Source of the DNA: Acuticoccus sp. MNP-M23
Lineage (GTDB): Bacteria > Pseudomonadota > Alphaproteobacteria > Rhizobiales > Amorphaceae
Length of the DNA stretch: 64,000 bases
Assembly: GCF_031195445.1 (NCBI RefSeq)
Contig: NZ_CP133480.1
Location: 3,278,501 to 3,342,500 of the forward strand
Direction: 5' to 3'
The position numbers and the translations under genes are program-made. The number at the start of each line of letters is the position of its first letter. The first letter of the stretch is position 1. The notes beneath the pieces were generated by a model that did not search any database, was not told where the DNA came from, and saw only the letters and a list, made by a program, of their open reading frames with translations. Positions 4,547 to 64,000 of this stretch are shown here, piece by piece.

Positions 4547-4556
4547 GGATCTGCCG

Positions 4557-8472: not shown

Positions 8473-8492
8473 TTGCAGAGCCCGCAAGGCGC

Positions 8493-8573: not shown

Positions 8574-8589
8574 AGGAACTGTCACCGCC

Positions 8590-9081: not shown

Positions 9082-9082
9082 C

Positions 9083-10354
9083 ATGCTGGCGCCGCTTCTC
9101 GTCTCGTTCGCCGTCCTCCTCGTGCTGCGCATTCCGGTTGCGGCGGCAATGGGGCTTTCGGGTGCCTTCGCGCTGTTCACGTCGGACATGCAGATCCCGC
9201 TGGCGGTGGTGCCGCAACGCATCTTCGTCCTTCTGGATTCCACCTCGCTGCTCGCCATTCCCTTCTTCATCCTCGCCGGTGCCATCATGGAGCAGGGCGG
9301 CATGGCGCGGCGGATGATCGGCTTTGCGCAGACCATGGTGGGCCACTGGCGCGGCGGCCTTGCGCAGGTGGACGTCCTCGCCAGCACCATCTTTTCCTCG
9401 TTGACGGGCTCCAGCGCGGCCAGCGCGTCGGCCACCGGCTCGGTGATGATCCCGGCCATGAAGCGGGCGGGCTATCCGGCCGGCTACGCCGCGGCGCTGG
9501 AAGCCTCCAGCGCCGCCATCGGGCCGATCATCCCGCCTTCGATCATCATGGTGATCTACGGCTCGCTCGCCGGCGTTTCGGTGGGCGCGCTGTTCCTGTC
9601 CGGCATCGTGCCCGGCCTGATGATCACGCTGGGCCTTTTTGCGGTGAATGCCGTCCAGGCCCGCCGCAAGGGCTGGGGCGGGGAGGCGCGCGCTTCGTTT
9701 CGCGAGCGGGCACGGGCGGCGCGGCTCGCCAGCGCTGCGCTGGTCGCCCCGCTCATCATCATCGGCGGCATTCTGGGCGGCGTGTTCACGCCCACCGAGG
9801 CGGGCGCGGTGGCGGTTGTCTACGCCGCGGTGATCAGCCTCTTCGTCTACCGCGAGATGGGGTTCCGGCGGCTGATGGGAAGCGTGTTCGACGCTGCGCT
9901 CACCACCGGCATCATCGGGCTCATCATCGCGTCGGCGGGCATCTTCGGCTGGGTGCTGGCGCTGGAACAGGTGCCGCAGATGGTGGTCGCCTGGGTCCAG
10001 AGCGTGACGGCGAGCCCATCCGTCGCCATCATTCTGGTGGTGGGCGTGGTCTTGGTGATCGGCTGCGTGGTGGACGTGACCGCGGCGGTCATCATCCTGG
10101 TGCCGGTGTTCGCGCCGCTTGGTGCAAGCTACGGGTTCGACCCGGTGCACTTCGGCATCATCATGTGCCTGGCGCTGGTCTACGGCAACGTGACGCCGCC
10201 GGTGGGCCTTCTGCTGTTCCTCACCGCAGGCATTGCAAAATGCTCGGTGGGCGAGGTGATGCGCTACCAGATCCCGTTCTACATCGTCCTGACGCTGGTA
10301 CTGGCTGCAACGGTTGCGCTGCCGGGCCTCGTCCTCTTCATCGCCCGGTTCTGA
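9083..10354 (+). CDS. TRAP transporter large permease (DctM), system 2
   Basis: A 423-residue, 12-segment membrane protein. DctM signatures include TSLLAIPFFILAGAIMEQGG, SSLTGSSAASASATGSVMIP, IGPIIPPSIIMVIYG, GVFTPTEAGAVAVVYA and VYGNVTPPVGLLLF. The ATG comes one base after the small-subunit stop, so expression is coupled. It ends 15 bases before the convergent FAD oxidase gene. Function: ion-driven import of the ligand delivered by the system 2 receptor. Confidence 0.95.
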   Translation: MLAPLLVSFAVLLVLRIPVAAAMGLSGAFALFTSDMQIPLAVVPQRIFVLLDSTSLLAIPFFILAGAIMEQGGMARRMIGFAQTMVGHWRGGLAQVDVLASTIFSSLTGSSAASASATGSVMIPAMKRAGYPAGYAAALEASSAAIGPIIPPSIIMVIYGSLAGVSVGALFLSGIVPGLMITLGLFAVNAVQARRKGWGGEARASFRERARAARLASAALVAPLIIIGGILGGVFTPTEAGAVAVVYAAVISLFVYREMGFRRLMGSVFDAALTTGIIGLIIASAGIFGWVLALEQVPQMVVAWVQSVTASPSVAIILVVGVVLVIGCVVDVTAAVIILVPVFAPLGASYGFDPVHFGIIMCLALVYGNVTPPVGLLLFLTAGIAKCSVGEVMRYQIPFYIVLTLVLAATVALPGLVLFIARF

Positions 10355-10369
10355 CCGGGCGCTGGCAGC

Positions 10370-11740
10370 TCAGGCCGCCAGCGTCTGTCCGCTGCCGAGC
10401 GCTGCCGCAATGCGGCGGCTGGCCTCGGTGCCCGTGGCAATCGCGGCATCCATGCAGGGAAACTCCATATAGTCTCCGGCAAGGTGGATCGGGCCGGAGG
10501 GACGCGAGAGTGCCTCCTGCAGCGCGGCCCGGCCCACGAAGCCGTAAGGCGCGCCCTGCGGCCAGCGCTGCACCACAGCCTCGCGCACGATCCCCCGCGT
10601 TTCGGGGTAGAGGGCGGCAAGGTCGGCCAGCATCGGCTCGACGATCTCGTTGTCTGCAAGGTCCATCATGCGGGCCGCATCCGGTCCGCCGCGAAACAGC
10701 ATCAGGCTGCCGCCCGGCTGGCGCGGCCCGGTGCGGGTGGTGCTTGCCATGTTGAACAGCACACCGAAGGAGAGCCCCGGCGTCGCGATCGCATACTTGT
10801 TGTCCCACGGCATCGGACCGGGCTCGCCGGTGAGAAGCGCGACCGACAGGAACGCGCCATAACGCACCGCCTTCAGCGCTGCCGTGGTCTCTGCCGGAAT
10901 GCCAGCCGCAATATCTGCCGCCACGTTGGCTGGCGCTGCAATGAGCGCCTGCCGGGCAACGATGGTGCGTTGCGCGCCGTCCATCCGGTAGGTGACGGTG
11001 ACGCGGTCGCCCTCGGCGCTCACCCGCTCCACCGGCGCATTCAGCCGCACATCGGCCAGCCCGGCCGCCAGCGCCAGCGGCAGTTGGGCCGAGCCACCGG
11101 AAAGGTTGCGGGCGAACGAGTAGGGGCTCCACACCTGCGCAAACGACGTCATCCCGTACCCGGCGGCCATGGTGGCGGGGTCGGCGGCGGTGCGCTGGGT
11201 GATGGTGGCAAGCATGTCGCGCACCGTTGGTGTCAGGCGGCCGGCGAAATCGCCGAGCGTGCGGCTGTTCTCGAATGAAAGCTGCCGTGCGCGAAATGCG
11301 TCCACCGCCTCGCCGTCCCGCCGCGCCTGCACCTTGCGCAGCTCTGCAACGCCCTTGCGCAGCCGGAGCCCGAGCCGCGCGAACGAGATGCGGTCGCCCA
11401 GCGACAGCGGCAGCCGTAGTGGAAAGGTCTCGGCCAGACCGCCGGCAACCACCTTGCCATTCATGCCGATGCCGAAACGGTGCCCCGGAATGTCCGCGAG
11501 CGGCAGCTTGAGTGAGCGGGCAAGCGCGCCGGCCGGCGTCTCGTCGCTGCCGAAAAGGTGCGCGCCGAAGTTCAGCCAGTAGTCGCCGCGCTGTTCGGAA
11601 TGGACGCGACCACCCACCCGGCCTGATGCTTCCAGCACCACCACGCGGTGATCCTTGAGGGTGTGGGCCGCGCTGAGGCCGGCAAGCCCTGCGCCCACCA
11701 CCACAACGTCGGCGGTCTCAAGCTCGTGCGTGTCGCTCAA
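10370..11740 (-). CDS. FAD-dependent amine oxidase / protoporphyrinogen oxidase-like protein
   Basis: A 456-residue flavoprotein. The N-terminal dinucleotide fold VVVVGAGLAGLSAAHTL (glycines 16, 18 and 21) is followed by the EASGRVGGRVHSE motif; the C-terminal FAD contact is IHLAGDYMEFPCMDAAIATG. This is the flavin amine oxidase/PPOX-like fold, whose members oxidise amines, desaturate carotenoids or oxidise porphyrinogens. The TTG start at 11740 is chosen because GAGG lies 7 bases upstream and the fold begins at once. It stands alone, divergent from the ChaC-like gene, so context does not define the substrate. Confidence 0.85.
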   Translation of the reverse strand: MSDTHELETADVVVVGAGLAGLSAAHTLKDHRVVVLEASGRVGGRVHSEQRGDYWLNFGAHLFGSDETPAGALARSLKLPLADIPGHRFGIGMNGKVVAGGLAETFPLRLPLSLGDRISFARLGLRLRKGVAELRKVQARRDGEAVDAFRARQLSFENSRTLGDFAGRLTPTVRDMLATITQRTAADPATMAAGYGMTSFAQVWSPYSFARNLSGGSAQLPLALAAGLADVRLNAPVERVSAEGDRVTVTYRMDGAQRTIVARQALIAAPANVAADIAAGIPAETTAALKAVRYGAFLSVALLTGEPGPMPWDNKYAIATPGLSFGVLFNMASTTRTGPRQPGGSLMLFRGGPDAARMMDLADNEIVEPMLADLAALYPETRGIVREAVVQRWPQGAPYGFVGRAALQEALSRPSGPIHLAGDYMEFPCMDAAIATGTEASRRIAAALGSGQTLAA

Positions 11741-11927
11741 GGGTGGCCTCGTTTCATGCTGTCCTGTGGCTGCATCAATGCGCGCCTGGCCGACTGGTGC
11801 CGCAAGGCGGACGTCCGTGCAAGGCCGCGCCGGCCGCAACGACGCGCATCTGGGTTGCACGCTGACCGGGCACGCGGCAGGCGCACCCGCGCGGATCATG
11901 TGGCACGCATCTGCTATGGCGGGGGGA

Positions 11928-11978
11928 ATGAAGACAGAGCGCTACCCGGCGCCAACCTTGGACGCCCCATGCCAGTGA
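11928..11978 (+). CDS. Possible short leader ORF (16 codons) overlapping the chaC-like start
   Basis: ATG at 11928 directly after a GGGGGGA stretch encodes MKTERYPAPTLDAPCQ and stops with TGA at 11976-11978. That stop overlaps an in-frame GTG of the ChaC-like gene at 11975 (GTGA). The geometry is that of translational coupling, and the downstream ATG at 11969 has no good ribosome site of its own. Coding status unproven. Confidence 0.3.
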   Translation: MKTERYPAPTLDAPCQ

Positions 11979-12733
11979 GCAACGACCCGTTCTCCCACCA
12001 CCCCGAACTTCGGGACAAGATCACTGCCACGCACGAATCGTTCTTTCGCACGACCAGCGTCGGCTCGGTGTTTGCAACCAGGCCCGAGCTTGCCTGGGTG
12101 CTGGATCTCCTGCACTCCGATGCGGTGCGCGAACACTCCCGCACGCAAACGCTGGCGGCGCATGGCGGCGGAGACCTCTGGGTGTTCGGCTACGGATCGC
12201 TGATGTGGGACCCGGCGTTTCACTTTTCCGAGGTGCGCCGCGCGACGGTCGACGGATATGCCCGCCGCTTCGTGCTAAAGGATGTCTGGGGCGCGCGCGG
12301 GACGGTCGACAATCCGGGCATGATGGCAGCGCTCGACCGGGGGGATTGCTGTGAGGGCCTCGCCTTCCGCATTGCACGAAGCGAGATCGACACCGAGACC
12401 GAAGTCCTGTGGCGCCGCGAAATGGTGGGCCCCGGCTATATCCCGACATTCGTGACGGCGAGGCTGGATGGCGAGACGGTGTCCGCGCTCACCTTCGTGG
12501 CCGATCATGCGGCCGAACAGATCGACCCGGCACTGACCCGCGCCGAGCAGATCCACTACATCGCTCACGGCACCGGGTTTCTGGGCACCAGCAAGGAATA
12601 TCTTGCCAACATCGTGCGCCAGTTTGCGGCGCTCGGCATCGACGATGCGGAATGCACGGAATTGCTGGAAGCGGTGGAAGCCTATGGCGCCGCGGCGCAA
12701 ACCGCCGGCCCGGGCGTCAATCCAAAGGGTTGA
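11969..12733 (+). CDS. ChaC-like gamma-glutamylcyclotransferase
   Basis: A 254-residue protein with the ChaC substrate loop VFGYGSLMWDP at about residues 72-82, followed by RRFVLKDVWGARGT and CCEGLAFRI. The family splits gamma-glutamyl peptides such as glutathione to 5-oxoproline and a free amino compound in the cytoplasm. The catalytic Glu expected near the middle is plausible in the ETEVLWRREM region. The ATG at 11969 is the annotated start; GTG at 11975 is an alternative that would couple with the small upstream ORF. Length is somewhat above the usual 200-230 because of an N-terminal extension. It is followed by a strong bidirectional terminator. Confidence 0.88.
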   Translation: MPVSNDPFSHHPELRDKITATHESFFRTTSVGSVFATRPELAWVLDLLHSDAVREHSRTQTLAAHGGGDLWVFGYGSLMWDPAFHFSEVRRATVDGYARRFVLKDVWGARGTVDNPGMMAALDRGDCCEGLAFRIARSEIDTETEVLWRREMVGPGYIPTFVTARLDGETVSALTFVADHAAEQIDPALTRAEQIHYIAHGTGFLGTSKEYLANIVRQFAALGIDDAECTELLEAVEAYGAAAQTAGPGVNPKG

Positions 12734-12762
12734 CGCGGCCGCTTGCGATGCGGCCGCGTCAA
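12730..12762. terminator. Bidirectional hairpin terminator between convergent genes
   Basis: A perfect 13-bp stem (TTGACGCGGCCGC at 12730-12742 with its complement at 12750-12762) and a 7-base loop sits between the convergent ChaC-like and secreted-protein genes, overlapping the former's stop codon. The T-tracts are weak on both strands. Confidence 0.65.
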
Positions 12763-12771
12763 GAAATGTTG

Positions 12772-13182
12772 TTACTGGGCGGTGATGGTGGTCATCACCA
12801 GATTGCCGTCAAGCCGGATCGGGCCGTCTTCCTTGGCGCCCAGCGTGTACTCGAACACGCCGGTCTTGGTGCCGCCGTCTTCGCTGTGCACCATCAGCAT
12901 GAGCATGTCACCGGACGCGACAGGCTCGGTCAGGATGGCGGCCACGTCCTCGGTCATGCCGGCGCGCAGAGGGGCATGGCCCACCACGGGGCCGGGCTTC
13001 ATGTCCGCGCCGGTGCGGTGGACCACCAGCCAGCCATTTTTTGGTGCGGACACGCTGCTTGCGCTGACCACGCCGTTGACGACGGGCTGGTCGACAGCGG
13101 TGACTGAGGGGGTTTCGGGGGACTGCGCAAACGACAGGCTGCTGATACCGACGAAAGCAACTGCGGTCATAAACATTTTCAT
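12772..13182 (-). CDS. Small secreted protein, DUF7282-like
   Basis: A 136-residue exported protein. Residues 1-19 (ending SFAQ) form a signal peptide, and the rest matches the DUF7282 pattern: SAPKNGWLVVHR, then GPVVGHAPLRAG, an EDVA block, a SGDMLMLMVH strand and a C-terminal FEY. This looks like a small beta-sandwich of unknown role. AGGAG precedes the ATG. The gene is monocistronic, with a strong hairpin downstream and 171 non-coding bases upstream. No catalytic residue set can be named. Confidence 0.75.
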   Translation of the reverse strand: MKMFMTAVAFVGISSLSFAQSPETPSVTAVDQPVVNGVVSASSVSAPKNGWLVVHRTGADMKPGPVVGHAPLRAGMTEDVAAILTEPVASGDMLMLMVHSEDGGTKTGVFEYTLGAKEDGPIRLDGNLVMTTITAQ

Positions 13183-13353
13183 GGCGAACTCCTATTCGGT
13201 TTTCGGTGCACTTACGCGGTGAGCGCTCGTGTTGTTGAAAACAGATACGGGCCGGCACGGCGGATGGATCAGATCGCGCGCAAAAAAATTTGGTACAATC
13301 AAAATTGGCGAGCTTGTCGGGGCAAAGGTCGCGCTGCTGATTGGATCCGGAGC

Positions 13354-14121
13354 CTAGATCCAGCCGCCGTCGACGACGAAAATCTGGCTGGAGATCATCC
13401 GGCTGTCATCCGATGCGAGCCAGGTGGCCATGTGCGCGCAATCCTCCGGCAAAACGTAGCCCGGCAGGCACTGCATCTCCTTGATCCGCGCGCGGGCTGC
13501 GTCGTCGACCCAGTGGGCGAGCTGGCGTTCCGTCATCACCCAGCCCGGAATGATGCAGTTGACGCGGATGTTGTCCGGCCCGAGATCGCGGGCGAGGGCA
13601 CGGGTCAGCCCTTCGATGCCTGCCTTGGCCATGGCGTAGAGGGGAAGGCCGCCAAACCCGGCGTGCCAGGTGATGGACCCGGTGTTGATGATCACGCCGC
13701 CGCCCTTGGCTGCCATGCCGGGCGCCACCGCCTGTGCGGCAAACACCAGATGCTTGAGGTTCACCGCAACGCGGTCGTCGAAGTAGGCGTCCTCGATCTC
13801 GCTGAACTTGTGGCGGGTATCGTTGGCAGCGTTGTTGACGAGCACGTCGATTGTGCCGTGCCGCGCGCTTGCCGTGTCGATCGCATCGCGCAGCGCCGCA
13901 ATGTCGGTGAGATCGACGTTCTGGAACACGGGTACCGTGCCGCCTGCGCTTTCCAGCCGCTCCACCAGCGCCGCTGAGGCGGCCGTGTCGATGTCGAAGA
14001 AGGTGACGTTGGCGCCCTGCGCGCAGAACGCTTCCACGTGGGCCGCGCCAATGCCGGAGCCACCGCCGGTGATGAGCACGTTCCGGCCGTTGAGGCTTGG
14101 ATGGGATGAGTTCTGTCGCAT
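13354..14121 (-). CDS. SDR-family oxidoreductase in the sugar ABC operon
   Basis: A 255-residue classical short-chain dehydrogenase. The NAD(P)-binding TGGGSGIG motif is at about residues 18-25, an acidic Asp follows strand two (FFDID), NNAAN lies in mid-protein, the catalytic Ser is in NTGSITWHAG and the Tyr-x3-Lys pair is in YAMAKAG. The Asp after strand two suggests NAD rather than NADP. It is the last gene of the operon that starts with the sugar-binding protein at 17731, so it probably oxidises the imported sugar or polyol (sugar-1-dehydrogenase type). Confidence 0.92.
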   Translation of the reverse strand: MRQNSSHPSLNGRNVLITGGGSGIGAAHVEAFCAQGANVTFFDIDTAASAALVERLESAGGTVPVFQNVDLTDIAALRDAIDTASARHGTIDVLVNNAANDTRHKFSEIEDAYFDDRVAVNLKHLVFAAQAVAPGMAAKGGGVIINTGSITWHAGFGGLPLYAMAKAGIEGLTRALARDLGPDNIRVNCIIPGWVMTERQLAHWVDDAARARIKEMQCLPGYVLPEDCAHMATWLASDDSRMISSQIFVVDGGWI

Positions 14122-14178
14122 GAGGATCTTTCAGCGTTTGCGGGCGGGCGGCGCCGCAGGTGGCACCGCCCGCTGCGG

Positions 14179-15126
14179 TCAGCGAACCCGCGAGCTCTTC
14201 TGGAGCTGCCCGTCGACAATGACGCCGAGGAGGATGACGGCACCCATCACGGCAAAGTTCAGCGAGCTTGGAATGCCGAGCATGTTGACGAGGTTCTGCA
14301 GCACCTGAAGGAGCACGACGCCAAGCGCGATGCCCAGAATGGAACCTTCGCCGCCGCGCAGCGAACACCCGCCCAGCACCGCCGCGGCAATGGCGTAAAG
14401 CTCATAGAAGTTGCCGTGCGCCGAGGGCGAAACCGACTGCGTGTAGAACACGAAGAACACCGTCGAGATGCCGGCAAGGATGCCGGAAATCGCGTAGGTC
14501 GCCACAATGACGGCCTTGGTGGGAATGCCCGAAAAGCGCGCCGCTTCCTCGTTCTTGCCGACGGCGAAGATGTACCGCCCCAGCACCGACTTGTGCAGGA
14601 GAACCGCCATCACCAGCGCCACCAGAATGAAGAAGATGAACGTGTGCGGGATGCCGTTGGTGCGACCCGAGGTCAGCCATTCCAGCGTCTCGTAGCCGCC
14701 GGCATAGCCGAAACCTTCCGTGGCGTCCGCGGTGTAGTAGCGCGCGATGCCGCGGTAGATGAGGAGGCCGCACAAGGTGACGACGAATGGTTGGAGGTTC
14801 AGTCGCGAGATCAGCACCCCGTGGATCGACCCCAGCACCATCCCGAAGAACACGACGATGACGAAGACGGCGGGCCAGGGGAGGCCGTAATTGACCAGAA
14901 GGTCGAGGAAGATCACGCCCAGCAGCGCCAGCATGGAGCCGACCGAAAGGTCGATGCCGCCGGTGACGATGACCACGCCAAGGCCCAGCGCCAGAAGGCC
15001 GAACAGGCCGATCTGGTTGGCAAGGTTGATGAGGTTGATGGTGGAGATGAACTGGGGATTGATGAGCGCGGTAACAGTGCCCGTCACCAGGATCAGGATG
15101 AACAGGCCGATTTCTTTTCTAAGCAT
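14179..15126 (-). CDS. Sugar ABC transporter permease (RbsC-type)
   Basis: A 315-residue permease of the ribose/galactoside family with eight to ten hydrophobic segments. The family blocks GGIDLSVGSMLAL and LNLQPFVVTLCGLLIYRGIA are present, as is the EAA-like loop ending AVLGGCSLRGGEGSILG. The start overlaps the ATPase stop by eight bases, so the two are translated together. It ends 57 bases before the SDR gene. Confidence 0.95.
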   Translation of the reverse strand: MLRKEIGLFILILVTGTVTALINPQFISTINLINLANQIGLFGLLALGLGVVIVTGGIDLSVGSMLALLGVIFLDLLVNYGLPWPAVFVIVVFFGMVLGSIHGVLISRLNLQPFVVTLCGLLIYRGIARYYTADATEGFGYAGGYETLEWLTSGRTNGIPHTFIFFILVALVMAVLLHKSVLGRYIFAVGKNEEAARFSGIPTKAVIVATYAISGILAGISTVFFVFYTQSVSPSAHGNFYELYAIAAAVLGGCSLRGGEGSILGIALGVVLLQVLQNLVNMLGIPSSLNFAVMGAVILLGVIVDGQLQKSSRVR

Positions 15127-55222: not shown

Positions 55223-55831
55223 CTACGGGGCGGGCAGATGCGCCAGGAAGTAGGCCAGTTCGGCGAGATCGTCCGCCGTCAGGTCCTGCACCACCTCGAC
55301 CATTGCGGCACGATCGCCGATTCGCCGCTCGTGCTTGTAGTCGAGCAGGGCCTTGGTGAGGTAGTCCTCCCGTTGGTTGCGCAAGGGGGGCATCTGGTGG
55401 CCGCCGCGATAGTCGGCGCCGTGGCAGCCGTTGCAGCGGTTGGCCTCCGACACGGTGCGGGCGGCGGCCATCCGGTCCGGGGCGCCGGGTTTGTCCGGCG
55501 GGGGCGGATCGGGCAGGCTTGCCACCCACGCCGATGCGGCGCGCAGGTCGTTGTCGGACATGCCGTCCATCACCGCCTGCATCACCGCGTTCTCTCGGTT
55601 GCCGGCGCGGAACGCGACCAGCTGCAACAGCGCATAATAATCGTCGATGCCGCCGAGAGATGGCACTTCGGCATTTTGCGAAACGCCCTCGGTGCCATGG
55701 CATGCGATGCACTGGGCCTGACGCTCGTGGAAAAGATCCTGCGCCGCGGCAGGCGTTGCACCGAGACCGGCGAGGAGAAGAAGGAGGGCAGCGCGCGGCC
55801 GCCCTCCGGCGCAAAGGCGCTTACCCGCCAT
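55223..55831 (-). CDS. Diheme c-type cytochrome
   Basis: A 202-residue exported cytochrome. Signal peptide ends near PAAAQ (residue 31). Two heme attachment sites: CIACH (Cys41, Cys44, His45) and CNGCH (Cys133, Cys136, His137), so it is a fused pair of class I c-type domains. Candidate sixth ligands are Met91 and the Met of HQMPPL. The gene overlaps the sugar dehydrogenase stop by 11 bases; it is the likely periplasmic electron acceptor of that enzyme. Confidence 0.9.
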   Translation of the reverse strand: MAGKRLCAGGRPRAALLLLLAGLGATPAAAQDLFHERQAQCIACHGTEGVSQNAEVPSLGGIDDYYALLQLVAFRAGNRENAVMQAVMDGMSDNDLRAASAWVASLPDPPPPDKPGAPDRMAAARTVSEANRCNGCHGADYRGGHQMPPLRNQREDYLTKALLDYKHERRIGDRAAMVEVVQDLTADDLAELAYFLAHLPAP

Positions 55832-57047
55832 AAGAAACCCGGTACACGGCGCCGTTCCAGTCGTCCGACACCAGAAGCGAGCCGTCCGGCATCACCTCCA
55901 CGTCGACCGGGCGGCCGATATATTCGTTGTTCTCGATGAGGCCGGTCAGGAACGGCTGGATCTCGGTCACGTCGCCATTGTCGTCGAGGTGGGCGACCAC
56001 AACGTCGCCGCCAATCTTCTCGGAGCGGTTCCACGGGCCGTGGCGCGCGATGAAGATCTGGCCCTTGTAGTCATCCGGAAACATGTCGCCGTTGTAAAAG
56101 CGCATGCCGAGCGGGGCAGTGTGCGGCCCGAGGAGGGCGACGGGGTCGGTAAAATCATCGCATGAGTAGCCCCAGCCGAACTCCGGGTCGGTGAACGTCC
56201 CGTTGTGGCAGAACGGAAAGCCGAAGTGCTGGCTGCCGATGTCGCTCATCCGGTTGAGTTCGTCCTCCGGCAAGTCTTCGCTCAGCCAGTCACGCTGATT
56301 GTCGGTGAAGTAGAGGTCGCCGGTGGCGGGGTGAAAGTCGAAGCCGACCGTGTTGCGCATTCCGCGCAGGACAGCCTTGGCATCCGACCCGTCGAGGTTC
56401 ATGGCGCGGACTTCGCCGAAGCCTTCTTCGAGGGCGCAGATGTTGCAGGGGGCAGAGTTGGAGACGTACAGCTTCTCGTCCGGGCTCACCGCCAGAAAGC
56501 GCCAGCCGTGCGGGCGCGGCTCGCCGAGATCGGCGTAGATCTCCTCAAGCTCGGGCGGATTGTCGAGATTGTTCTCGATATCGGCAGCCTTGGCGATCCG
56601 GTGGTGCTCGGCAATGTAGAGGTCGCCGCCATGAAGGGCGAGGCCATTGGGCCAGTCGAGCCCCTGATAGATCATCCTGGGCTCGCCGCCTTTCGGGATG
56701 GCCCAGACGTTGTTGCCCTGCCAGTTGCCGACAAACACTGTGCCTGCGTCCGACACGCGCAAGGTGCGCGCATTGTTGATGCCACTGGCGAACACTTCGA
56801 CCTTGAAGCCGTCGGGCACCTGGATCTTGCCGAGGGGCAGATCCGCCGCGGCGGTGGTGAGCGGCGGCGGGGTGGCCGGGGCAAGGCGCTGGGCGCCGGC
56901 GGTTTCGGGCCGGCCGGCGAGGGGGCCATCGGCCGGGCGCACCTGCGCCGGCGCGTCGGGCCCCTTGGGATCGGCCTGTGCAAGGGCCGAATGGGCGGAC
57001 AAGGCCGCCAGCGGTGCACCAAGCAGCGCCGCATAAAGCAGTTTCAT
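55821..57047 (-). CDS. PQQ-dependent sugar dehydrogenase-like (sorbosone dehydrogenase type) periplasmic protein
   Basis: A 408-residue exported beta-propeller. Signal peptide about 1-24 (ALLGAPLAALSAHSALAQ). Propeller blades carry VPDGFKVEVFASGINNARTL, LYIAEHHRIAKA, EPRPHGWRFLAVSPDEKLYV and FHPATGDLYFTDNQRDW, the pattern of sorbosone and soluble glucose dehydrogenase-like enzymes; the RPHG His is a candidate base. A Pro/Ala-rich linker spans 25-75. GGGAGG precedes two ATGs (57050, 57047); the second has the better spacing. Transcribed first, followed by the cytochrome c. Confidence 0.85.
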   Translation of the reverse strand: MKLLYAALLGAPLAALSAHSALAQADPKGPDAPAQVRPADGPLAGRPETAGAQRLAPATPPPLTTAAADLPLGKIQVPDGFKVEVFASGINNARTLRVSDAGTVFVGNWQGNNVWAIPKGGEPRMIYQGLDWPNGLALHGGDLYIAEHHRIAKAADIENNLDNPPELEEIYADLGEPRPHGWRFLAVSPDEKLYVSNSAPCNICALEEGFGEVRAMNLDGSDAKAVLRGMRNTVGFDFHPATGDLYFTDNQRDWLSEDLPEDELNRMSDIGSQHFGFPFCHNGTFTDPEFGWGYSCDDFTDPVALLGPHTAPLGMRFYNGDMFPDDYKGQIFIARHGPWNRSEKIGGDVVVAHLDDNGDVTEIQPFLTGLIENNEYIGRPVDVEVMPDGSLLVSDDWNGAVYRVSYGG

Positions 57048-57348
57048 CATAAACCTCCCAAAATGGTGCCGGAAATTCTTGTTTCCGGTCTTCGTATTTA
57101 ATGGAGAGGTTATGGCGGAGACTTCGCCTGCTCTCCTGAAATCATAGTGAACGACTTCAAGCGGCAAGCAAGCGGATTGATCAGAATGCCTCTTTCAGTC
57201 GCATCCCAAGTCGGCGACGTATCGTTGCCATGGTTGCTCTTTCGATGCTCCGAAGTATGCGGATGCATTTTATTGTGTTGTCGGCACGGCGTCTGCATGA
57301 GACAGTTTAGACCTAAAACGTCTAGCAACCGACACTGGAGAGGGTTCC
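57048..57348. other. Divergent intergenic region before TRAP system 4
   Basis: 301 bases between the leftward sugar dehydrogenase and rightward TRAP system 4. It is more AT-rich than the genes and should hold both promoters. TTTAG-AC-CTAAA lies about 40 bases before the TRAP start as a small dyad; otherwise no coding potential is convincing on either strand. Confidence 0.6.
57069..57088. promoter_or_regulatory. Palindrome in the sugar dehydrogenase leader
   Basis: CCGGAAA and TTTCCGG are a perfect 7-bp inverted repeat with a 6-base spacer, ending 21 bases before the sugar dehydrogenase start codon at 57047. It could be a repressor site or a leader hairpin. Confidence 0.5.
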
Positions 57349-58341
57349 ATGAAGCGTTCGATTCTGGCCGTAGTCACCGCGGCCATCGCGTTCAGCGGCG
57401 CAGCGAAAGCTGAAGATGTCATCACGGCGACCCACGTCTTTCCGGCCGGGCTGATCTACACGAAGAGCTTTCTGGAATACGTCGACAAGGTGAACGAGGC
57501 CGGCGAGGGCGTCGTCCGGATCGACGTGCGCGGCGGGCCGGAAGCCATCGGCATGTTCGAGCAGCCGGCAGCGGTGCGCGACGGCATCGTCGACATGGTC
57601 TATACGCCCGGCTCCTTCTACGGCGGCACGGTCGCCGAAAAGGACGCGCTCGTCGCCTCCAACATCACCGGCCCCGAAGCCCGCGAGAACGGCGGCATCG
57701 ACCTCCTGAACGAGATCCACCAGGAGAAGATGGGCGTCTACTATCTCGGCTGGATGGATTCGGGCATCAAGTTCCACCTCTACATGACCGAAGAGCCTCA
57801 GCTGGACGCCGAGGGCAACCTCGACATTTCGGGCGAGAAGCTGCGCGGCAACCCGATCTTCAACGCCTTCTTCACCGACTACCTGAAGGGCCAGGTACTC
57901 AACATTGCCTCCACCGAGCTTTACACCGCCCTCCAGCGCGGCACGATCTCGGCAACCGGGTGGACCTCCATCGGTCTGATGGACCTGTCGTGGGACGAGT
58001 ATCTGCCATACCGCGTCGACCCCGGCTTCTTCTCCACCGACCTTGGGGTGATCGTGAACCTCGAAAGCTGGAACGCCCTTTCGGACGAATCGAAGAAAAT
58101 CCTCCAGGACGTTGCCATCGAGCACGAGAAGTCGAGCATGGAAAAGCTCGTTCAGCTGGCCAAGGACGAGTTCGCCGAACTCGACAAGCGCGGCCAGAAG
58201 GTGATCACGCTGGAAGGCGAGGCGGGCGAGAACTACGTGAACGCTGCCCGCGAAACCACCTGGAACCGGATGCGCGAGCAGATGGAAGCCCAGGGCACGA
58301 TGGACAATTACGAGCCGCTAATGGAGCACTTCAACAAGTGA
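57349..58341 (+). CDS. TRAP transporter substrate-binding protein (DctP family), system 4
   Basis: A 330-residue receptor with signal peptide (residues 1-21, ending AAKAED). The start VITATHVFPAGLIYTKSFLEY is DctP-like, but the mid-region GSFYGGTVAEKDALVAS and LYTALQRGTISATGW differ from systems 1-3. This is closest to the subgroup around C4-dicarboxylate or sugar-acid receptors. GAGAGGG precedes the ATG. Divergent from the periplasmic sugar dehydrogenase and cytochrome, whose oxidation product it may import. Confidence 0.92.
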   Translation: MKRSILAVVTAAIAFSGAAKAEDVITATHVFPAGLIYTKSFLEYVDKVNEAGEGVVRIDVRGGPEAIGMFEQPAAVRDGIVDMVYTPGSFYGGTVAEKDALVASNITGPEARENGGIDLLNEIHQEKMGVYYLGWMDSGIKFHLYMTEEPQLDAEGNLDISGEKLRGNPIFNAFFTDYLKGQVLNIASTELYTALQRGTISATGWTSIGLMDLSWDEYLPYRVDPGFFSTDLGVIVNLESWNALSDESKKILQDVAIEHEKSSMEKLVQLAKDEFAELDKRGQKVITLEGEAGENYVNAARETTWNRMREQMEAQGTMDNYEPLMEHFNK

Positions 58342-58354: not shown

Positions 58355-58870
58355 GTGCACGGCGTGACGCACCTCGTTCGCGCGTACGACCTTCTGGTGG
58401 TGGGGTTGGCGGTGATCGCCGGCGCCATCCTGCCGGCCTTCATGCTGATCATCGTCTATCAGGTGGTGTGGCGTAATCTCGGCCTGCAGCCCTCGGCGCA
58501 CCTCTTCACCTTCACCGAATATGGCCTGCTCTATCTGACGATGCTGGGCGCCCCCTGGCTCGTGCGCGAGCGCGGCCACGTCTACATCGAAGTGCTGACA
58601 GCCTATCTGCCGGTGCGCGCCCGCAACGCCCTGTCGCGGATCGTCTCGGCGCTCTGCGTCGTCATCTCAGGCGTTCTGGCGCTCAAGGGGCTCGACATCA
58701 CGCTCACCAATTTCGCGTCGGCCGAGATGGACGTGCGCTCGCTCTATTTCCCCCGCTGGATCCTGATTGCGTGCATTCCCCTGGGGTTCGGGCTGATGGC
58801 GGTGGAGTTCGCCAGGTTCGTGTTCGGCGCTGAACTTTTCCATTCCGGCGAAGCCGGCATTCACGAATGA
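58355..58870 (+). CDS. TRAP transporter small permease (DctQ), system 4
   Basis: A 171-residue membrane protein with four hydrophobic segments. YQVVWRNLGLQPSAHLFTFTEYG and VRERGHVYIEVL are DctQ-like. GTG start at 58355, 13 bases after the receptor stop; an in-frame GTG at 58364 is an alternative. Eight bases separate it from the large subunit. Confidence 0.9.
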   Translation: MHGVTHLVRAYDLLVVGLAVIAGAILPAFMLIIVYQVVWRNLGLQPSAHLFTFTEYGLLYLTMLGAPWLVRERGHVYIEVLTAYLPVRARNALSRIVSALCVVISGVLALKGLDITLTNFASAEMDVRSLYFPRWILIACIPLGFGLMAVEFARFVFGAELFHSGEAGIHE

Positions 58871-58878: not shown

Positions 58879-60192
58879 ATGGAATGGTACCAGGCGTTGG
58901 CCCTGCTTCTGGGCATGGTCTTCACGTTGATGATGCTGGGGATGCCGGTGGCGCTGGCCTTCCTTGGCGCCAACCTGGTCGGCGCCTTCATCTTCATGGG
59001 CGGCGAGCGGGGGATCGGCCAGCTCATCAACAACGGTTTTGGCGCGATGACCAACTTCGCGCTGGTGCCGATCCCGCTGTTCTTGCTGATGGGCGAGCTC
59101 TTCTTCCACACGGGTCTTGCAACCCGTGTCTTCAACGGGGTCGACCGGCTGCTGGGCAAGCTCCCGGCGCGGCTGTCCTATGTCACCGTCGGCGGCGGCA
59201 CGGCGTTCGCCACGCTGTCGGGCTCCTCCATGGGGTCAACCGCGCTGCTCGGTTCGCTGATGCTGCCGGAGATGATGAAGCGCGGCTATTCCAAGGTGAT
59301 GGCGATCGGCCCCATTCTGGGCACCGGCGGCCTTGCCATCATCATCCCGCCGTCGGCGCTCGCCGTCCTTCTCGCCACGTTCGCGCGGATCGACGTCGGC
59401 TCGCTTCTTCTGGCGGGTGTGATCCCCGGCATTATCCTTGCCGGGTTCTACGCTGCGCTCATCTATACGCTCGCCCGGATCAACCCGGATTCAGCGCCCG
59501 CCTACGAGGTGGTCGCAATGCCGTGGGGGGACCGCATAAAGTTGTTCATCAGCGAGCTGATGCCGATGGTGGCAGTGGTCGTCCTCGTCATCACGGTGAT
59601 GGTGACCGGGTGGGCAACGCCGACCGAGGCGGCGGCGTTCGGCTGCTTCGGCGTGGTCGTTCTGGCAGCCATCTACCGCTGCCTCACGGTCTCGGCGTTC
59701 GTCACCGCCTGCCGCGGCGCGCTGAAGGTGACGCTGATGAGCTTCCTCATCATCTTCGGCTCATCCACATTCTCGCAGCTTCTGGCCTTCTCCGGCGCGT
59801 CCTCCGGCTTCATCGGCTGGGCGACCTCCATGGAGGCGGGGCCGTACACGATGCTTCTCATCATGTTCATGATCCTCCTCATTCTCGGCATGTTCATGGA
59901 CCAGCTTTCGATGCTGCTGCTCACCGTGCCAATCTTCTTTCCGCTGGCAGCGCAGCTGGGGTTCGATCCCATCTGGTTCGGCCTGATCGTGCTTCTGGCG
60001 CTGGAAATCTCGTTCACCACGCCGCCCTTCGGCCTCCTCCTCTTCGTGATGAAGGGGGTGGCGCCGCCCGGCACCACCATGCGTGAGATCTACATCGCCG
60101 GTTTCCCGTTCATCGCCTGCATCCTCCTTCTGGTGCTGCTGCTGGTCGCCTTCCCCGGGATTGCGCTGTTCCTGCCCAATCTCGGCCATTGA
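58879..60192 (+). CDS. TRAP transporter large permease (DctM), system 4
   Basis: A 437-residue DctM protein. Signatures: FALVPIPLFLLMGELFFHTG, FATLSGSSMGSTALLGSLMLP, GTGGLAIIIPPSALAVLLAT, GWATPTEAAAFGCFG and SFTTPPFGLLLFVMKG. Ends the system 4 transport operon; a V4R gene follows after 116 bases, so the block to 61723 may be transcribed together. Confidence 0.95.
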   Translation: MEWYQALALLLGMVFTLMMLGMPVALAFLGANLVGAFIFMGGERGIGQLINNGFGAMTNFALVPIPLFLLMGELFFHTGLATRVFNGVDRLLGKLPARLSYVTVGGGTAFATLSGSSMGSTALLGSLMLPEMMKRGYSKVMAIGPILGTGGLAIIIPPSALAVLLATFARIDVGSLLLAGVIPGIILAGFYAALIYTLARINPDSAPAYEVVAMPWGDRIKLFISELMPMVAVVVLVITVMVTGWATPTEAAAFGCFGVVVLAAIYRCLTVSAFVTACRGALKVTLMSFLIIFGSSTFSQLLAFSGASSGFIGWATSMEAGPYTMLLIMFMILLILGMFMDQLSMLLLTVPIFFPLAAQLGFDPIWFGLIVLLALEISFTTPPFGLLLFVMKGVAPPGTTMREIYIAGFPFIACILLLVLLLVAFPGIALFLPNLGH

Positions 60193-60308: not shown

Positions 60309-60797
60309 ATGAGGTTCCATGAAAGACTGCGCCACGATGAGCCGAACGGGGCTCATTATGACGGCGACATCCGCTACATGATGATCCGCCCCGATGCGTT
60401 GATGGGCATCTTCGCGAGGCTCGACCCTGCCGCCCGTCAAGCGGCGATGGAGGCCTTTCGCGACTCCATCATCGAGCGCGGCGGGCAGTCGGCCGCCACC
60501 TATGTTTCGGCCGATGGCATCGATAGGCTGCTGGGCGTCATCGAAGCGACCGCGGCGGATCTTGGCTGGGGCCGCTGGCATTTCGAGCGCATCGGCGACG
60601 GTTACGGGCTGACGGTCCGCAACAGCCCCTTCGGCGCCGCAGCGCCATTCGAGGGACCGGCCTGCCACGCCATTGTCGGGATGGCGACAATTGTGGGCAC
60701 CATGGTGCTCGGCGCTCCGGCCACGGCGACCGAAACGGCGTGCGTGGCGTCCGGGGCCGCAGAGTGCCGCTTTGTCGTGGAGCCAGAGCAGGCGTGA
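60309..60797 (+). CDS. Stand-alone V4R (4-vinyl reductase) domain protein with MopR-like zinc site
   Basis: A 162-residue protein consisting almost only of a V4R domain, with no HTH or AAA+ part. Cys119, Glu142, Cys145 and Cys153 show spacings of 23, 3 and 8, equal to the zinc ligands of the phenol sensor MopR as I recall them (Cys155, Glu178, Cys181, Cys189). The C-terminal GASxCxF-like end, here SGAAECRFVVEP, is family-typical. V4R domains bind small aromatics in DmpR/XylR-type regulators and occur in BchJ. The start ATG at 60309 is followed by the flavin reductase with a GTGA overlap, so the two proteins probably work together. Confidence 0.8.
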   Translation: MRFHERLRHDEPNGAHYDGDIRYMMIRPDALMGIFARLDPAARQAAMEAFRDSIIERGGQSAATYVSADGIDRLLGVIEATAADLGWGRWHFERIGDGYGLTVRNSPFGAAAPFEGPACHAIVGMATIVGTMVLGAPATATETACVASGAAECRFVVEPEQA

Positions 60798-61723
60798 GCG
60801 ACCCGATCGACACGCGCGCGATGCGTCAGACGCTGGGTCAGTTCGCCACCGGCGTCACCATTGTCACCTGCCGCGGGGCGGACGGCTTGCCGGTGGGGAT
60901 GACGGCCAACTCCTTCGCCTCGGTATCACTGGAGCCGCCGCTGGTCCTGTGGTCGGTGGACCGCAAGGCGCGCTCGTTTGCAGCCTTCGCCGCCGCGCCG
61001 GCCTTCGCCTTTTCCATTCTGGCGCAGGATCAGGTGGACCTCTCCAACCGCTTTGCCCGTCCAGGCGCCGACAAGTTTGCCGCCACCCCATGCGACGAAG
61101 GGCTGGACGGTGTGCCGCTCATCAGCGGCGCAGCAGGCCATTTCGAGTGCGTGCAGGAAACGGCGTTCGACGGGGGGGACCATCTCATCATCGTCGGCCG
61201 CGTGCGGCGCTTTGCGCGGTTCGAAAAGCCGTGCCTCGTGTTTGCGCAAGGGCGGTATGGCGCCATTGCCGCGCATCCGGGTCCGGCGCCCGAGCAGGGC
61301 AGCGCCATCGAGGCCCGCCATCCCTACGACGACTTTCTGGTTCCGCTGCTCTTCCGTGCCTACAACCACCTTTTCGCGGCATTCTCCGGCGCGCTCGCCG
61401 AGCGGGACGCGACAGGCGGCCAGATGCGGATGCTCGCGATCCTTGCCGAAAGTCCGTGCGGGGAGGACAGCCTTTTAACGCGCACCATGCTGTCGCAGTC
61501 GCGCTTTTCTGAGGCCCGGCAGCGGCTGGTCGCGGCCAGGCTGGTGGCAGAGGTCCCGGCGGGGCTCGAGATCACCGAAGCGGGCAGGGAGCGGCTCATG
61601 GCGCTTCTGCATCAGGCTGCGGCCCGAGAGCAGAGCGCCACCGAGGCGCTGGATGCAGCCGAGGTCGCGCACCTCAAGTCGCTCCTGCGCAAGCTCGTCC
61701 GCCACCACGAGGCGGACGACTGA
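60794..61723 (+). CDS. Flavin reductase fused to a C-terminal MarR-like domain
   Basis: A 309-residue two-domain protein. Residues 1-165 are an HpaC/RutF-type flavin reductase (LGQFATGVTIVTCRGADGLP, then GMTANSFASVSLEPPLVLW and DLSNRFA). Residues 175-300 are a MarR-like winged helix (AYNHLFAAFSGALAERDATG, ARQRLVAARLVAEVP, ITEAGRERLMALL). The same arrangement is known in the reductase component of Acinetobacter 4-hydroxyphenylacetate hydroxylase, where the MarR part controls activity by binding the aromatic substrate. GTG start overlaps the V4R stop. It should supply reduced FMN to a monooxygenase such as the LLM enzyme at 62537-63631. Confidence 0.88.
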   Translation: MSDPIDTRAMRQTLGQFATGVTIVTCRGADGLPVGMTANSFASVSLEPPLVLWSVDRKARSFAAFAAAPAFAFSILAQDQVDLSNRFARPGADKFAATPCDEGLDGVPLISGAAGHFECVQETAFDGGDHLIIVGRVRRFARFEKPCLVFAQGRYGAIAAHPGPAPEQGSAIEARHPYDDFLVPLLFRAYNHLFAAFSGALAERDATGGQMRMLAILAESPCGEDSLLTRTMLSQSRFSEARQRLVAARLVAEVPAGLEITEAGRERLMALLHQAAAREQSATEALDAAEVAHLKSLLRKLVRHHEADD

Positions 61724-61748: not shown

Positions 61749-62540
61749 TCAGCCCGCCTTCTTGCGCGGGCGCTTTGCTGGTGCCCTGGCGGTCTTTTCG
61801 CGAAAGAGGGCAAGATCTTCGGCCGTGCGGGTCTCGAAGGCGGCCACGTCAATGGTGGTGACCGACAGGGCATAACCTTCGCCAATGCGGGCGACTGCGG
61901 CGGCAGCGCTCATGGCGAACACGCCGCAGGGTGTCTTTGCCGCCTTGCAGGCAGCCAGAATTCTTGCGCAGGCCGCGTTGTGCGCGTCGCTTCCCGGCGC
62001 AACACCCAGCGAAAGCGCCAGATCGCCCGTGCCGATGAACACCATGTCGACGCCGGATGCTGCAATTTCGGCGGCAGCCTCCAGCCCCTTTGCGGTCTCG
62101 ATCATCACGCCGGCAACGACGGCATTGTTGGCGGTGGCCGAATAGGTGCCGAAATCGGCCAGCGGACGGACGCCGCCGCCGGAGCGGTGACCGGCGGGCG
62201 GATAGCGGCAGGCGGAGACCACGGCTGCCGCCGCCTCCGCGCTCTCCACCAGCGGCACCAGCACACCTTCCGCGCCCGCATCCAGCGCTTCGCCGATGCT
62301 GGCGGCGGCATCGTCGCGCGTGCGCACCAGAACCGGGGCAGAACTTGCCGTTATCGCAGCCTCCAGCGACAGCCTGTCGAACAGGCCGTGCTGCATGTCG
62401 ATCACCACCGCATCCATGCCGTGGCGCCCGGCCACCTCGATCAGCACCGGGGCGCCCAGCGTGAACCAGGCCACGCCCAGCGGCCCGCCCGCCTTCAGCG
62501 CCTTTTTCAGCCGTGCTTTCTTAGGGTCCATAATGCTCAT
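61749..62540 (-). CDS. HpcH/HpaI-family aldolase
   Basis: A 263-residue metal-dependent aldolase. Family blocks: MDAVVIDMQHGLFD, VLVRTRDDAAASIGEALDAG, GVLVPLVESAEAA, GVMIETAKGLEAAAEIAASG with a metal Glu, and DMVFIGTGDLALSLGV with a metal Asp. The C-terminal Lys/Ala/Pro-rich tail (ARAPAKRPRKKAG) is extra. Members split 4-hydroxy-2-oxoacids or reverse condensation. ATG at 62540 overlaps the monooxygenase stop (ATGA), so both are translationally coupled. It probably cleaves a hydroxylated product from that enzyme. Confidence 0.9.
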   Translation of the reverse strand: MSIMDPKKARLKKALKAGGPLGVAWFTLGAPVLIEVAGRHGMDAVVIDMQHGLFDRLSLEAAITASSAPVLVRTRDDAAASIGEALDAGAEGVLVPLVESAEAAAAVVSACRYPPAGHRSGGGVRPLADFGTYSATANNAVVAGVMIETAKGLEAAAEIAASGVDMVFIGTGDLALSLGVAPGSDAHNAACARILAACKAAKTPCGVFAMSAAAAVARIGEGYALSVTTIDVAAFETRTAEDLALFREKTARAPAKRPRKKAG

Positions 62541-63631
62541 CGAAGGCCAGCCTCTTTCAGGAGCGGCAGGACATGCTCGCAAAAATGCGGCAGCTCTGCG
62601 GTGTAGTCGAGAAATGAAAGCGCCGTGCCGCGGTACCCTTCTGCCGCAATGCGGGCGATGTCGGCGGCAATCATGTCCGGCGTGCCGACCAGCGGGTAGG
62701 TGCCTGCGCCGCCGGCAAACCGCTGGGCGTAGCGGGTGTAGGCATCCTCGTCGTGGCTCTTGGAAAACTGCTTCTTGCCGGCCATGTGGTTGGCGACCGC
62801 ATCGTGGTCGGCCTCATGGAGGGCGTAGCGGTCATAGGCTTCGCGCGCCTCGTCGGCACTGTCGCGGCAGACGACGTGGCACACGGTGTGGATGCCGACG
62901 TCGCGGCCCGCTGCATCGGCTCTGGCGGAAATGTCGGCCACATGCCTGGCGCCGTCGGCAATGTCGCTGAAGGTGGAGAACAGCATGTCGCAGTGCTGCG
63001 CCGCAAAATCGCGCCCCGGCGGGCCGAATGCCGCGTTCATGGTCATGGGCCGGGGGGTCTGGATGCTGGCGGGGCGGCTCACCACGCCCTTGAGGTTGTA
63101 GTAGGCGCCGTCGAAGTCGAACGGCGCATCCTCGGTGTAGGCGCGCTCGATGATCCGGATCCATTCGGCGGCCCGCTCATAGCCCCTCTCGTCCGGCGTT
63201 GCGCCGAACATCGCAAATTCGGCCGGGTTCCAGCCGCAGACGATGTTGAGCCCCGCGCGCCCGCCCGACACATGGTCCACCGTCGCCAGCGCCTTGGCCG
63301 CATAGACCGGATGCACCAGCGGCACATGGACGGTGGAAAACACCGCAATGCGCTCGGTCAGCGCAGCAAGGGCCGCGGCCCATGTGAAGGTCTCGAACGA
63401 ATGCTCCCGCGCGCGGGTTTCGCCGCCAAAACCCTGCCAGCGCGCAATGGGCAGGAAGAAATCGAGTCCCGCCCGGTCGGCGATCTGTGCCGCCGCCACA
63501 TTGTCGGCCCAGGAGGCGCGCCAGCGCTCCGGCACGGTGGTGATGGCAAGGCCACCGTCGGCGTTGGCGGCAAACACACCGAGCTTGAAGCCTTCGGGAT
63601 TGGCGAGGGGGTTGGTCGTCTGATCTGGCAC
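62537..63631 (-). CDS. RutA-like LLM-class flavin-dependent monooxygenase
   Basis: A 364-residue luciferase-like enzyme close in length and plan to RutA. Matching parts: KLGVFAANADGGLAITTVPE, FFLPIARWQGFGG, SFETFTWAAALAALTERI, ATVDHVSGGRAGLNIVCGWN and the YPLVGTPDMIAADI near the end. Such two-component enzymes use reduced FMN and oxygen to open or oxidise nitrogen heterocycles or organosulfur compounds. The GTG start at 63631 is preferred (GGAA upstream); the TTG two codons earlier is possible. The stop overlaps the aldolase start. The flavin reductase at 60794-61723 is on the other strand and converges. Confidence 0.88.
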   Translation of the reverse strand: MPDQTTNPLANPEGFKLGVFAANADGGLAITTVPERWRASWADNVAAAQIADRAGLDFFLPIARWQGFGGETRAREHSFETFTWAAALAALTERIAVFSTVHVPLVHPVYAAKALATVDHVSGGRAGLNIVCGWNPAEFAMFGATPDERGYERAAEWIRIIERAYTEDAPFDFDGAYYNLKGVVSRPASIQTPRPMTMNAAFGPPGRDFAAQHCDMLFSTFSDIADGARHVADISARADAAGRDVGIHTVCHVVCRDSADEAREAYDRYALHEADHDAVANHMAGKKQFSKSHDEDAYTRYAQRFAGGAGTYPLVGTPDMIAADIARIAAEGYRGTALSFLDYTAELPHFCEHVLPLLKEAGLR

Positions 63632-63748
63632 GGGCAAGGTTCCGGCTTGTCGGGGGGCTATCGTGGCCCGCCGGACCCTTGTGCGAAAGGGGATAGTTGA
63701 CGGATGGCGCCGCGAGGTGTGGAAACAGTCCACCACAGGATTGCCCCA

Positions 63749-64000
63749 ATGGATCACGCCGCCCTCGACACCCGCGCCCCCGCAGCTGACGGCATGCGCC
63801 AGCTCATTCGCGACCTTGAGACCGACAACATCGCCGACCTCGCCACCAAGGCGAACAAGCTCAACGATGTCATCCGCCTCTGGTACGGCGAAGGCGATGT
63901 GGTGACGCCAGACTTCATCAAGAAGGCTGCCGCCGATGCGCTTACCGCCGGCCGCACCTTCTACGAGCCGGACATGCGCGGCGCGGCCGACCTGCGCGCG
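63749..64000 (+). CDS. PLP-dependent aminotransferase class I/II, partial (N-terminus only)
   Basis: The first 84 codons lie in the window. MDHAALDTRAP opens the gene; the block LWYGEGDVVTPDFI, then AAADALTAGRTFYEPDMRGAADLRA is the classical aminotransferase I/II N-terminus before the PLP domain. AGGA precedes the ATG at 63749. Divergent from the monooxygenase-aldolase pair with a 117-base gap containing a small GTGGA/TCCAC dyad at 63719-63733. It may process an amino-containing product of the pathway. The PLP lysine lies beyond the window. Confidence 0.85.
   Translation, partial: MDHAALDTRAPAADGMRQLIRDLETDNIADLATKANKLNDVIRLWYGEGDVVTPDFIKKAAADALTAGRTFYEPDMRGAADLRA

Follow-up and report, generated by a model that had tools for sequence, protein, structure and literature searches.

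In sensors of the MopR type, phenol is anchored by a His and a Trp, and a structural zinc is coordinated by three Cys together with one Glu, as described in PMC10715001. The V4R domain occurs either alone or fused to other domains, and its presumed role is signaling toward effectors, whether in cis or in trans; the same account (PMC2253512) describes the experimental evidence on it as limited. Two further systems are of concern here. In the C1 flavin reductase of p-hydroxyphenylacetate hydroxylase (HPAH C1), the protein's own C-terminal MarR domain has been described as an autoinhibitory, substrate-sensing switch, and transfer of the reduced flavin to the oxygenase can occur by diffusion, the two proteins needing no contact (PMC10816480). 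In the iac loci for indoleacetate, the named members include IacA, IacB, IacC, IacD, IacE, IacF, IacG, and IacI (PMC9613470).

The window analyzed here is a stretch of 64,000 nucleotides from the genome of Acuticoccus sp. MNP-M23. It encodes a V4R protein (60309-60797, + strand) that appears to be a free-standing MopR-type sensor core, composed of an XylR_N-like N-terminal half and a V4R domain, and whose relatives recur in operons for the catabolism of aromatic compounds. We propose, with a probability of about 0.42, that this protein is a zinc-stabilized ligand-binding module acting as an accessory of an aromatic-catabolic module, with a ligand probably of the indole/anthranilate type.

A free-standing sensor core with a conserved zinc set

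The V4R gene starts with ATG, stops with TGA (60795-60797) and encodes 162 amino acids. The sole family matched by Pfam in this protein was V4R (PF02830, residues 102-159, 35.7 bits for a cut-off of 31), leaving it without an output domain, and no NCBIfam family was found for it. The original prediction had described precisely such a V4R protein lacking an output, and had assigned Cys119, Glu142, Cys145, and Cys153 to the 23-3-8 spacing of the MopR zinc ligands; our results confirmed both points. The codons of the four predicted ligands are located at 60663-60665, 60732-60734, 60741-60743, and 60765-60767, respectively (all on the + strand). In a phmmer search, the top solved structure was MopR (5kbe, E = 0.0021), and the three Cys and the Glu were aligned, Cys119 with a MopR cysteine and Glu142 with the MopR Glu.

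The four residues were invariant in all 15 aligned sequences, i.e., the window protein and 14 relatives that are 39-61% identical to it. The exact 23-3-8 spacing was recovered in ten of these sequences, the remaining five having 23 or 24, 3, and 8 to 10. The spacing motif is not a chance pattern, since it appeared in one of 200,000 shuffles of the V4R protein and had a single match in the window (76,135 residues, in stop-to-stop stretches of at least 100 amino acids). Beyond the zinc set, 26 more positions were invariant in the alignment, the polar residues Arg6, Asp18, Arg22, Tyr23, Arg43, Ser61, Tyr65, and Ser106 being among them. All 15 sequences matched PF02830 at E up to 1. We infer that the four residues hold one structural zinc.

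The AlphaFold2 model of the V4R protein, obtained from 12 rows, had a pLDDT of 84.5 and a pTM of 0.75. With this model, the best Foldseek matches were PoxR (E = 3.6e-8) and MopR (E = 2.0e-7). With VIA, the Z scores over 162 aligned residues were 15.6 for DmpR (rmsd 2.8), 15.0 for MopR (rmsd 3.0), and 14.8 for PoxR; those of MJ1460 (11.4) and of the Bet3 and BcsD families (about 11 and below) were lower. The matches to PoxR, MopR, DmpR, MJ1460, and Bet3 in these two comparisons thus assign the predicted model to the V4R/Bet3-type fold. When the 15-row profile was compared with solved structures, the match to MopR improved to E = 2.4e-6, and DmpR/CapR (6iy8, E = 6.2e-5), PoxR (5fru, E = 2.5e-4), and, as a weak match, MJ1460 (2osd, E = 0.012) were also recovered.

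The similarity was not confined to the part matched by Pfam. Although none of the 15 sequences matched Pfam XylR_N (PF06505) at E up to 1, the N-terminal half was covered both by the fold alignments and by hhalign. When the 15 rows were aligned with nine XylR_N-V4R regulators encoded in other genomes of the phylum, the probability was 97.1 (E = 1.3e-10) in global mode and 96.2 (E = 2.3e-9) in local mode, both halves being aligned (these are E-values of single comparisons). The N-terminal half thus also appears to belong to the MopR-type sensor core. In the VIA alignment, the 162 residues corresponded to residues 21-198 of MopR, and the whole protein, as modeled, is close to the MopR sensor core in size and shape.

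The ligand pocket

The phenol-anchoring residues of MopR did not follow the zinc set. In the hhalign alignment, the His was aligned with Gly86, invariant in the 15 sequences, and the Trp fell in a gap; this pocket comparison was made by sequence alignment, and in this region the sequences are weakly alignable and the registers of phmmer and hhalign differ. In the phmmer alignment, PoxR Trp130, which we take from its numbering to be the Trp of the His/Trp dyad, was aligned with Gly96. There was no invariant or 90% conserved His column in the 15-row alignment. Judging from these alignments, the subfamily would have kept the zinc scaffold but not the phenol-anchoring dyad. A MopR-like phenol pocket was therefore not supported, nor was a phenol-type ligand, given the alignment of the His with an invariant Gly and the lack of a conserved His column.

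Distribution of the subfamily

A profile of the subfamily gave scores of about 250 bits with two of its members and at most 35 bits with the remaining V4R loci tested from the order, so that the V4R proteins studied here form a subfamily of their own. Counting the genome of Acuticoccus sp. MNP-M23 in each case, we detected this subfamily in 3 of 10 genomes of the family and in 11 of 397 genomes of the order. Across the phylum it was present in 4 of 398 genomes, all four from the same order, and across the class in 1 of 385, which was the own genome. Further loci were found on three named contigs, the only loci recovered by a contig scan with the single window protein, and on three plasmids. 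The closest named relative of the window protein was that of Acuticoccus mangrovi (L005), with 61% identity. The truncated sequence of L015 was omitted from the 15-row alignment and from the overlap comparison.

Free-standing V4R proteins are common in the order. We found V4R matches in 27 of the 150 genomes of the order examined, and 21 of the 29 matches listed were in open frames of no more than 310 amino acids (at least one, that in G096, being cut by a contig end), a length that would probably leave no room for a fused AAA+ output. In the own genome, PF02830 matched only the V4R gene of the window and PF06505 had no match, so that no DmpR-type partner was found there.

Gene neighborhood

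Upstream of the V4R gene and on the same strand, the window encodes a TRAP transporter, with DctP (57349-58341, PF03480, 63 bits), DctQ (58355-58870, PF04290, 76.1 bits), and DctM (58879-60192, PF06808, 248.9 bits), the end of the latter being located 116 bases 5' of the V4R gene. The V4R stop codon and the GTG start codon of the next gene overlap in the four bases GTGA (60794-60797, + strand). This next gene (60794-61723, + strand; PF01613, 127.6 bits) encodes a flavin reductase with a C-terminal winged-helix (MarR-like) extension, homologous to HPAH C1 (5zc2, E = 2.9e-61). The opposite strand carries an HpcH/HpaI-type aldolase (61749-62540, PF03328, 90 bits; the start at 62540 comes from a gene call made here) and a luciferase-like flavin monooxygenase of the SfnG/RutA-like type (62537-63757 as the longest open reading frame, PF00296, 189.4 bits). 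The true start of the monooxygenase is probably downstream of that of the longest frame, because the matches of homologues with at least 59% identity begin between residues 15 and 48. Its matches to the SfnG, RutA, and NtaA/DmoA models were all below the cut-offs, the best NCBIfam score being that of SfnG (175.3 bits for a cut-off of 382.95). An aminotransferase gene begins near 63749 and extends past the end of the window, where it is followed by genes for a GNAT protein and an amidohydrolase.

On the other side of the TRAP genes, upstream of them, the region 55223-57167 (- strand) encodes a cytochrome c protein in which Cytochrom_C matched two stretches, beside a glucose/sorbosone dehydrogenase-like protein; no homologue was found among the open reading frames of 11 related loci compared.

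We compared 16 loci of the subfamily, the window and 15 others, scoring a gene as present when a tblastn match with E no higher than 1e-12 covered half or more of the reference protein. At least one of the aldolase, the monooxygenase, and an FAD-linked oxidase was present in 14 of the 16 loci, L024 and L028 being the exceptions. Taken singly, the HpcH/HpaI aldolase was present in 11 loci, the luciferase-like monooxygenase in 10 (or 11 when the remainder of the L015 contig is counted), the FAD-linked oxidase in 8, and DctM in 6; absences are weak evidence here because the loci range from 1.9 to 18 kb in length, L015 being cut. Homologues of a GntR/FCD regulator were present in 7 of the 16 loci, and none was found in the stretch of the window itself. 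A flavin reductase of any kind was present in 10 of the 16 loci and carried the MarR-like extension in three; among the other 13 loci, seven had a flavin reductase in which no such extension was detected and six had no reductase in the stretch examined.

In 11 of 15 loci, the V4R gene shared 1-4 bases with a neighboring gene, whose identity varied. This neighbor was the reductase only in the window, L005, and L017, always with four bases, and the aldolase in L019, L021, L022, and L023. Elsewhere it was the FAD-linked oxidase (L029), both this oxidase and the monooxygenase (L027), a short-chain dehydrogenase (L007), or both a CoA-transferase III and a 3-hydroxyacyl-CoA dehydrogenase (L024). No overlap was observed in L006, L018, L020, and L028, the V4R gene of L020 being separated from the aldolase by 3 bases. 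The upstream overlaps depend on the V4R start chosen, which was GTG in L007 and TTG in L024; the annotated start of L027 (9040) lies 60 bases inside the frame used here. The overlap partner changes from locus to locus; the constant element is the catabolic operon and not the reductase. The recurrence of the gene inside aromatic-catabolic operons thus makes it more likely that the V4R protein serves the aromatic pathway than the adjoining reductase.

A CoA ligase and a thiolase-like gene were also observed near the V4R gene in L006 (2872-5612), L007 (2180-5264), and L017 (5568-8314), accompanied in L007 by a ChsH2-like zinc-ribbon/OB-fold protein.

The candidate pathway

Taken alone, the flanks of the window (TRAP, aminotransferase, GNAT, amidohydrolase) name no substrate. 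In two related loci, L019 and L021, tryptophan 2,3-dioxygenase, kynureninase, and an aromatic-CoA-ligase-type protein are encoded downstream on the V4R strand, past one gene on the opposite strand. The L019 kynureninase was above the cut-off of TIGR01814, and the ligase of the same locus had 372.4 bits for a benzoate-CoA ligase family cut-off of 375.25. A gene of the NF006101 family is located at the edge of both stretches, and L007 encodes an NF006101 protein (1308.7 bits) with a homologue in L029, where it is annotated as namA. The model itself is named bifunctional salicylyl-CoA 5-hydroxylase/oxidoreductase; we assume that proteins of this type act on 2-aminobenzoyl-CoA. L029 also has IorA/IorB-like genes, the IorA-like one with 289.5 bits, under the TIGR03336 cut-off of 650.9, and homologues of both genes are present in L006 (59 and 56%).

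L028 encodes an HsaA-like flavin monooxygenase (below the model cut-off), the alpha and beta subunits of a Rieske protein, two flavin reductases, a LysR regulator, and an amidase. To judge from the protein families of the Iac members, with IacH presumably being an amidase, this gene set is of the kind known from iac loci. The corresponding stretch (3275-14981) belongs to the Rhizobium rhizoryzae plasmid NZ_CP049249.1, whose gene table has no features there; the V4R gene is located 16 bases 3' of the HsaA-like monooxygenase gene, and an ABC transporter is part of the iac-like set.

At the level of genomes, NF006101 was above its cut-off in 11 of 11 V4R-positive and in 13 of 29 V4R-negative genomes, and a monooxygenase orthologue (at least 59% identity) was present in 10 of 11 V4R-positive and in 6 of 16 V4R-negative genomes; these counts are not independent, because the V4R-negative genomes were hand-picked and are related, the set of 16 having been picked for strong NF006101 matches. 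Within the genus, NF006101 did not discriminate, the V4R-negative G001 being over the cut-off of 1078 bits and G003, G004, and G007 reaching 1012-1026 bits. In 8 of the 10 genomes, no more than 10 kb separated the monooxygenase orthologue from the V4R gene, and in the other two it was on another contig; in G255, the genome of L024, there was no monooxygenase match at E = 1e-60. Taken together, the gene contexts and the genomes hint at a catabolism of the indole/kynurenine/anthranilate type.

A cluster of the monooxygenase, an HpcH-type aldolase, and an aminotransferase was also observed in two genomes in which the V4R search was negative, at 6622-16545 of L055 (G141) and 7590-11678 of L057 (G019). 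It looks like a catabolic cluster, and in L055 it adjoins genes for RidA, an acyl-CoA dehydrogenase, an enoyl-CoA hydratase, an SDR protein, and an NF006101-type protein. Its occurrence in these genomes suggests that the pathway may run without V4R. In the own genome, outside the window (C1:4699000-4718500, L030), an NF006101 gene is grouped with genes for a CoA ligase, an acyl-CoA dehydrogenase, an enoyl-CoA hydratase, and RidA (395-11491), beside a 1139-residue protein that is weakly IorA-like (24%).

Function of the V4R protein

The V4R domain, the zinc residues, the fold, and the recurrent operon membership with overlaps of 1-4 bases come from sequence or prediction. We tentatively favor the accessory role proposed above because the V4R protein is folded like known binding domains, has changing partner genes, and is made together with the enzymes. 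It would be a free-standing MopR-type module, in which an XylR_N-like half is combined with V4R and one structural zinc, and it would belong to a patchily distributed aromatic-catabolic module. The other parts of the latter would be a TRAP or ABC uptake system, the luciferase-like monooxygenase with a flavin reductase, the HpcH/HpaI aldolase, and an FAD-linked 2-hydroxy-acid oxidase. We infer that the V4R protein binds an aromatic acid or a pathway intermediate, probably of the indole/anthranilate type, and that it could handle this substrate or intermediate for the enzymes made from the same operon. Much of this evidence would also fit signaling in trans or catalysis.

The V4R protein could bind a pathway aromatic and signal as a sensor or adaptor to a regulator or effector encoded elsewhere, as its fold and zinc set, shared with the sensors MopR, DmpR, and PoxR, might suggest. 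However, no regulator is a constant partner (the GntR/FCD homologues being limited to 7 of 16 loci, outside the window), the own genome offers one V4R match and no XylR_N match, and the gene lies inside enzyme operons that it overlaps by 1-4 bases, so that we regard signaling in trans as unlikely. The steady presence in enzyme operons would equally suit an enzyme catalyzing a step of the pathway, with the pocket as active site. The eight invariant polar residues outside the zinc set (Arg6 to Ser106) are in line with catalysis, as is the cluster of three conserved Cys that has been reported as common to V4R and the ATC hydrolase domain (PMC5847659). However, the nearest solved structures are ligand-binding sensor domains, and membership in the ATC hydrolase family was not supported, PF14196 not being one of the 5 families that the 15 members matched in Pfam at E up to 1 (HMMER filters can drop weak matches). 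We regard an enzymatic role as unlikely to the same degree as signaling in trans.

The original prediction favored another partner, proposing that the V4R protein is an aromatic-ligand adaptor that directly gates the MarR-fused flavin reductase or its monooxygenase. The four-base overlap with the reductase, starting at the GTG at 60794, is real and is kept in L005 and L017. The MarR part of the fusion, which found no match to the Pfam MarR models at E up to 0.5, was recovered by a three-row profile of the reductase, in which positions 5-305 were aligned end to end with positions 12-313 of HPAH C1 (5zc2, the E-value being that given above); in the predicted model, also from three rows, this C-terminal part was poor and of low confidence (mean pLDDT 56.8 for the protein). 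The extension (61301-61723 of the window) also resembles a separate MarR protein encoded at 14395-14841 of L029, the La 6 V4R/IorAB locus (26%, E = 8e-4), and this regulator and the reductase switch may share an origin. Since the homologous HPAH C1 uses its own MarR domain as a switch, the window reductase probably contains a ligand gate of its own. Moreover, HPAH flavin transfer can proceed by diffusion, with no need of protein contact (PMC10816480). Only one genus has the overlap (3 of 15 loci), the MarR-like extension is limited to 3 of 16 loci, and the partner gene of V4R differs between loci, so that gating specific to the reductase ranks low and is in our view improbable; it is possible for Acuticoccus alone, its support there being limited to adjacency. 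The other half of the proposal fares better, the fold and the operons making the protein a likely small-molecule binder beside a two-component flavin system. Lastly, that the V4R protein is a functionless relic, a phenol sensor domain that has lost its output, would agree with the lack of an output domain, and was put very low given the invariance of the zinc set and 26 more positions among relatives of 39-61% identity, as well as the non-conservation of the phenol-anchoring His of MopR.

Returning to the accessory role, a bolder version, which we consider doubtful, would make the subfamily a dedicated ligand-binding subunit or an enzyme in an undescribed indole/anthranilate-type route involving the luciferase-like monooxygenase, the HpcH/HpaI aldolase, and the TRAP transporter. 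If this were true, a phenol-sensor domain would have been recruited into the metabolic machinery itself. Free-standing V4R proteins being widespread, the subfamily provides a testable setting for the role of such proteins, since genes for a transporter, a monooxygenase, an aldolase, and a reductase surround the gene of one predicted binding module in a compact operon and some of the host alphaproteobacteria are cultured. Should an acid of the indole or anthranilate type prove to bind to the module, the V4R ligand and the substrate of the cluster could be found together.

Comparison with known systems

The domain, the free-standing form, the zinc site, and the MarR-fused reductase are already known. 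The arrangement had not been recognized as a described one; this has to be qualified, as free-standing V4R proteins are described in PMC2253512. As to the setting, no title on V4R in such a catabolic cluster was present among the open-licence literature matches listed. Within the same matches, the new element is the tie of the subfamily to an aromatic-catabolic module.

The V4R protein shares with the sensors MopR, DmpR (CapR), and PoxR the fold over 162 residues and the zinc set of three Cys and one Glu, but it lacks their AAA+ sigma-54 activator and DNA-binding parts. Compared with MopR, it is about 16 residues shorter (162 residues against positions 21-198), and an invariant Gly is aligned with the phenol-anchoring His. 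It resembles the free-standing V4R proteins of COG1719, such as MJ1460 (PDB 2oso, Z = 11.4), in being a lone V4R-type module, and differs from them in forming a subfamily of its own in an aromatic-catabolic operon setting. A further V4R group, the BchJ-type proteins, is associated with bacteriochlorophyll synthesis and would be expected in a photosynthesis gene cluster. The window reductase, like HPAH C1 of Acinetobacter baumannii (AbHpaC, 5zc2), combines a flavin reductase with a C-terminal MarR-like domain; however, its 209.5 bits are under the cut-off of 340 of NF045919, the HPAH C1 equivalog model, which does not support the same enzyme, and its oxygenase partner would be of the luciferase-like type. 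Finally, two of the related loci recall the iac/iad loci for indoleacetate, L029 with its IorA/IorB-like, MarR, and 2-aminobenzoyl-CoA-type genes and L028 with its HsaA-like monooxygenase, Rieske alpha and beta subunits, flavin reductases, and amidase. In a word search, “V4R,” “luciferase,” and “aldolase” were absent from the main text of both PMC9613470 and PMC12633357, which deal with these loci.
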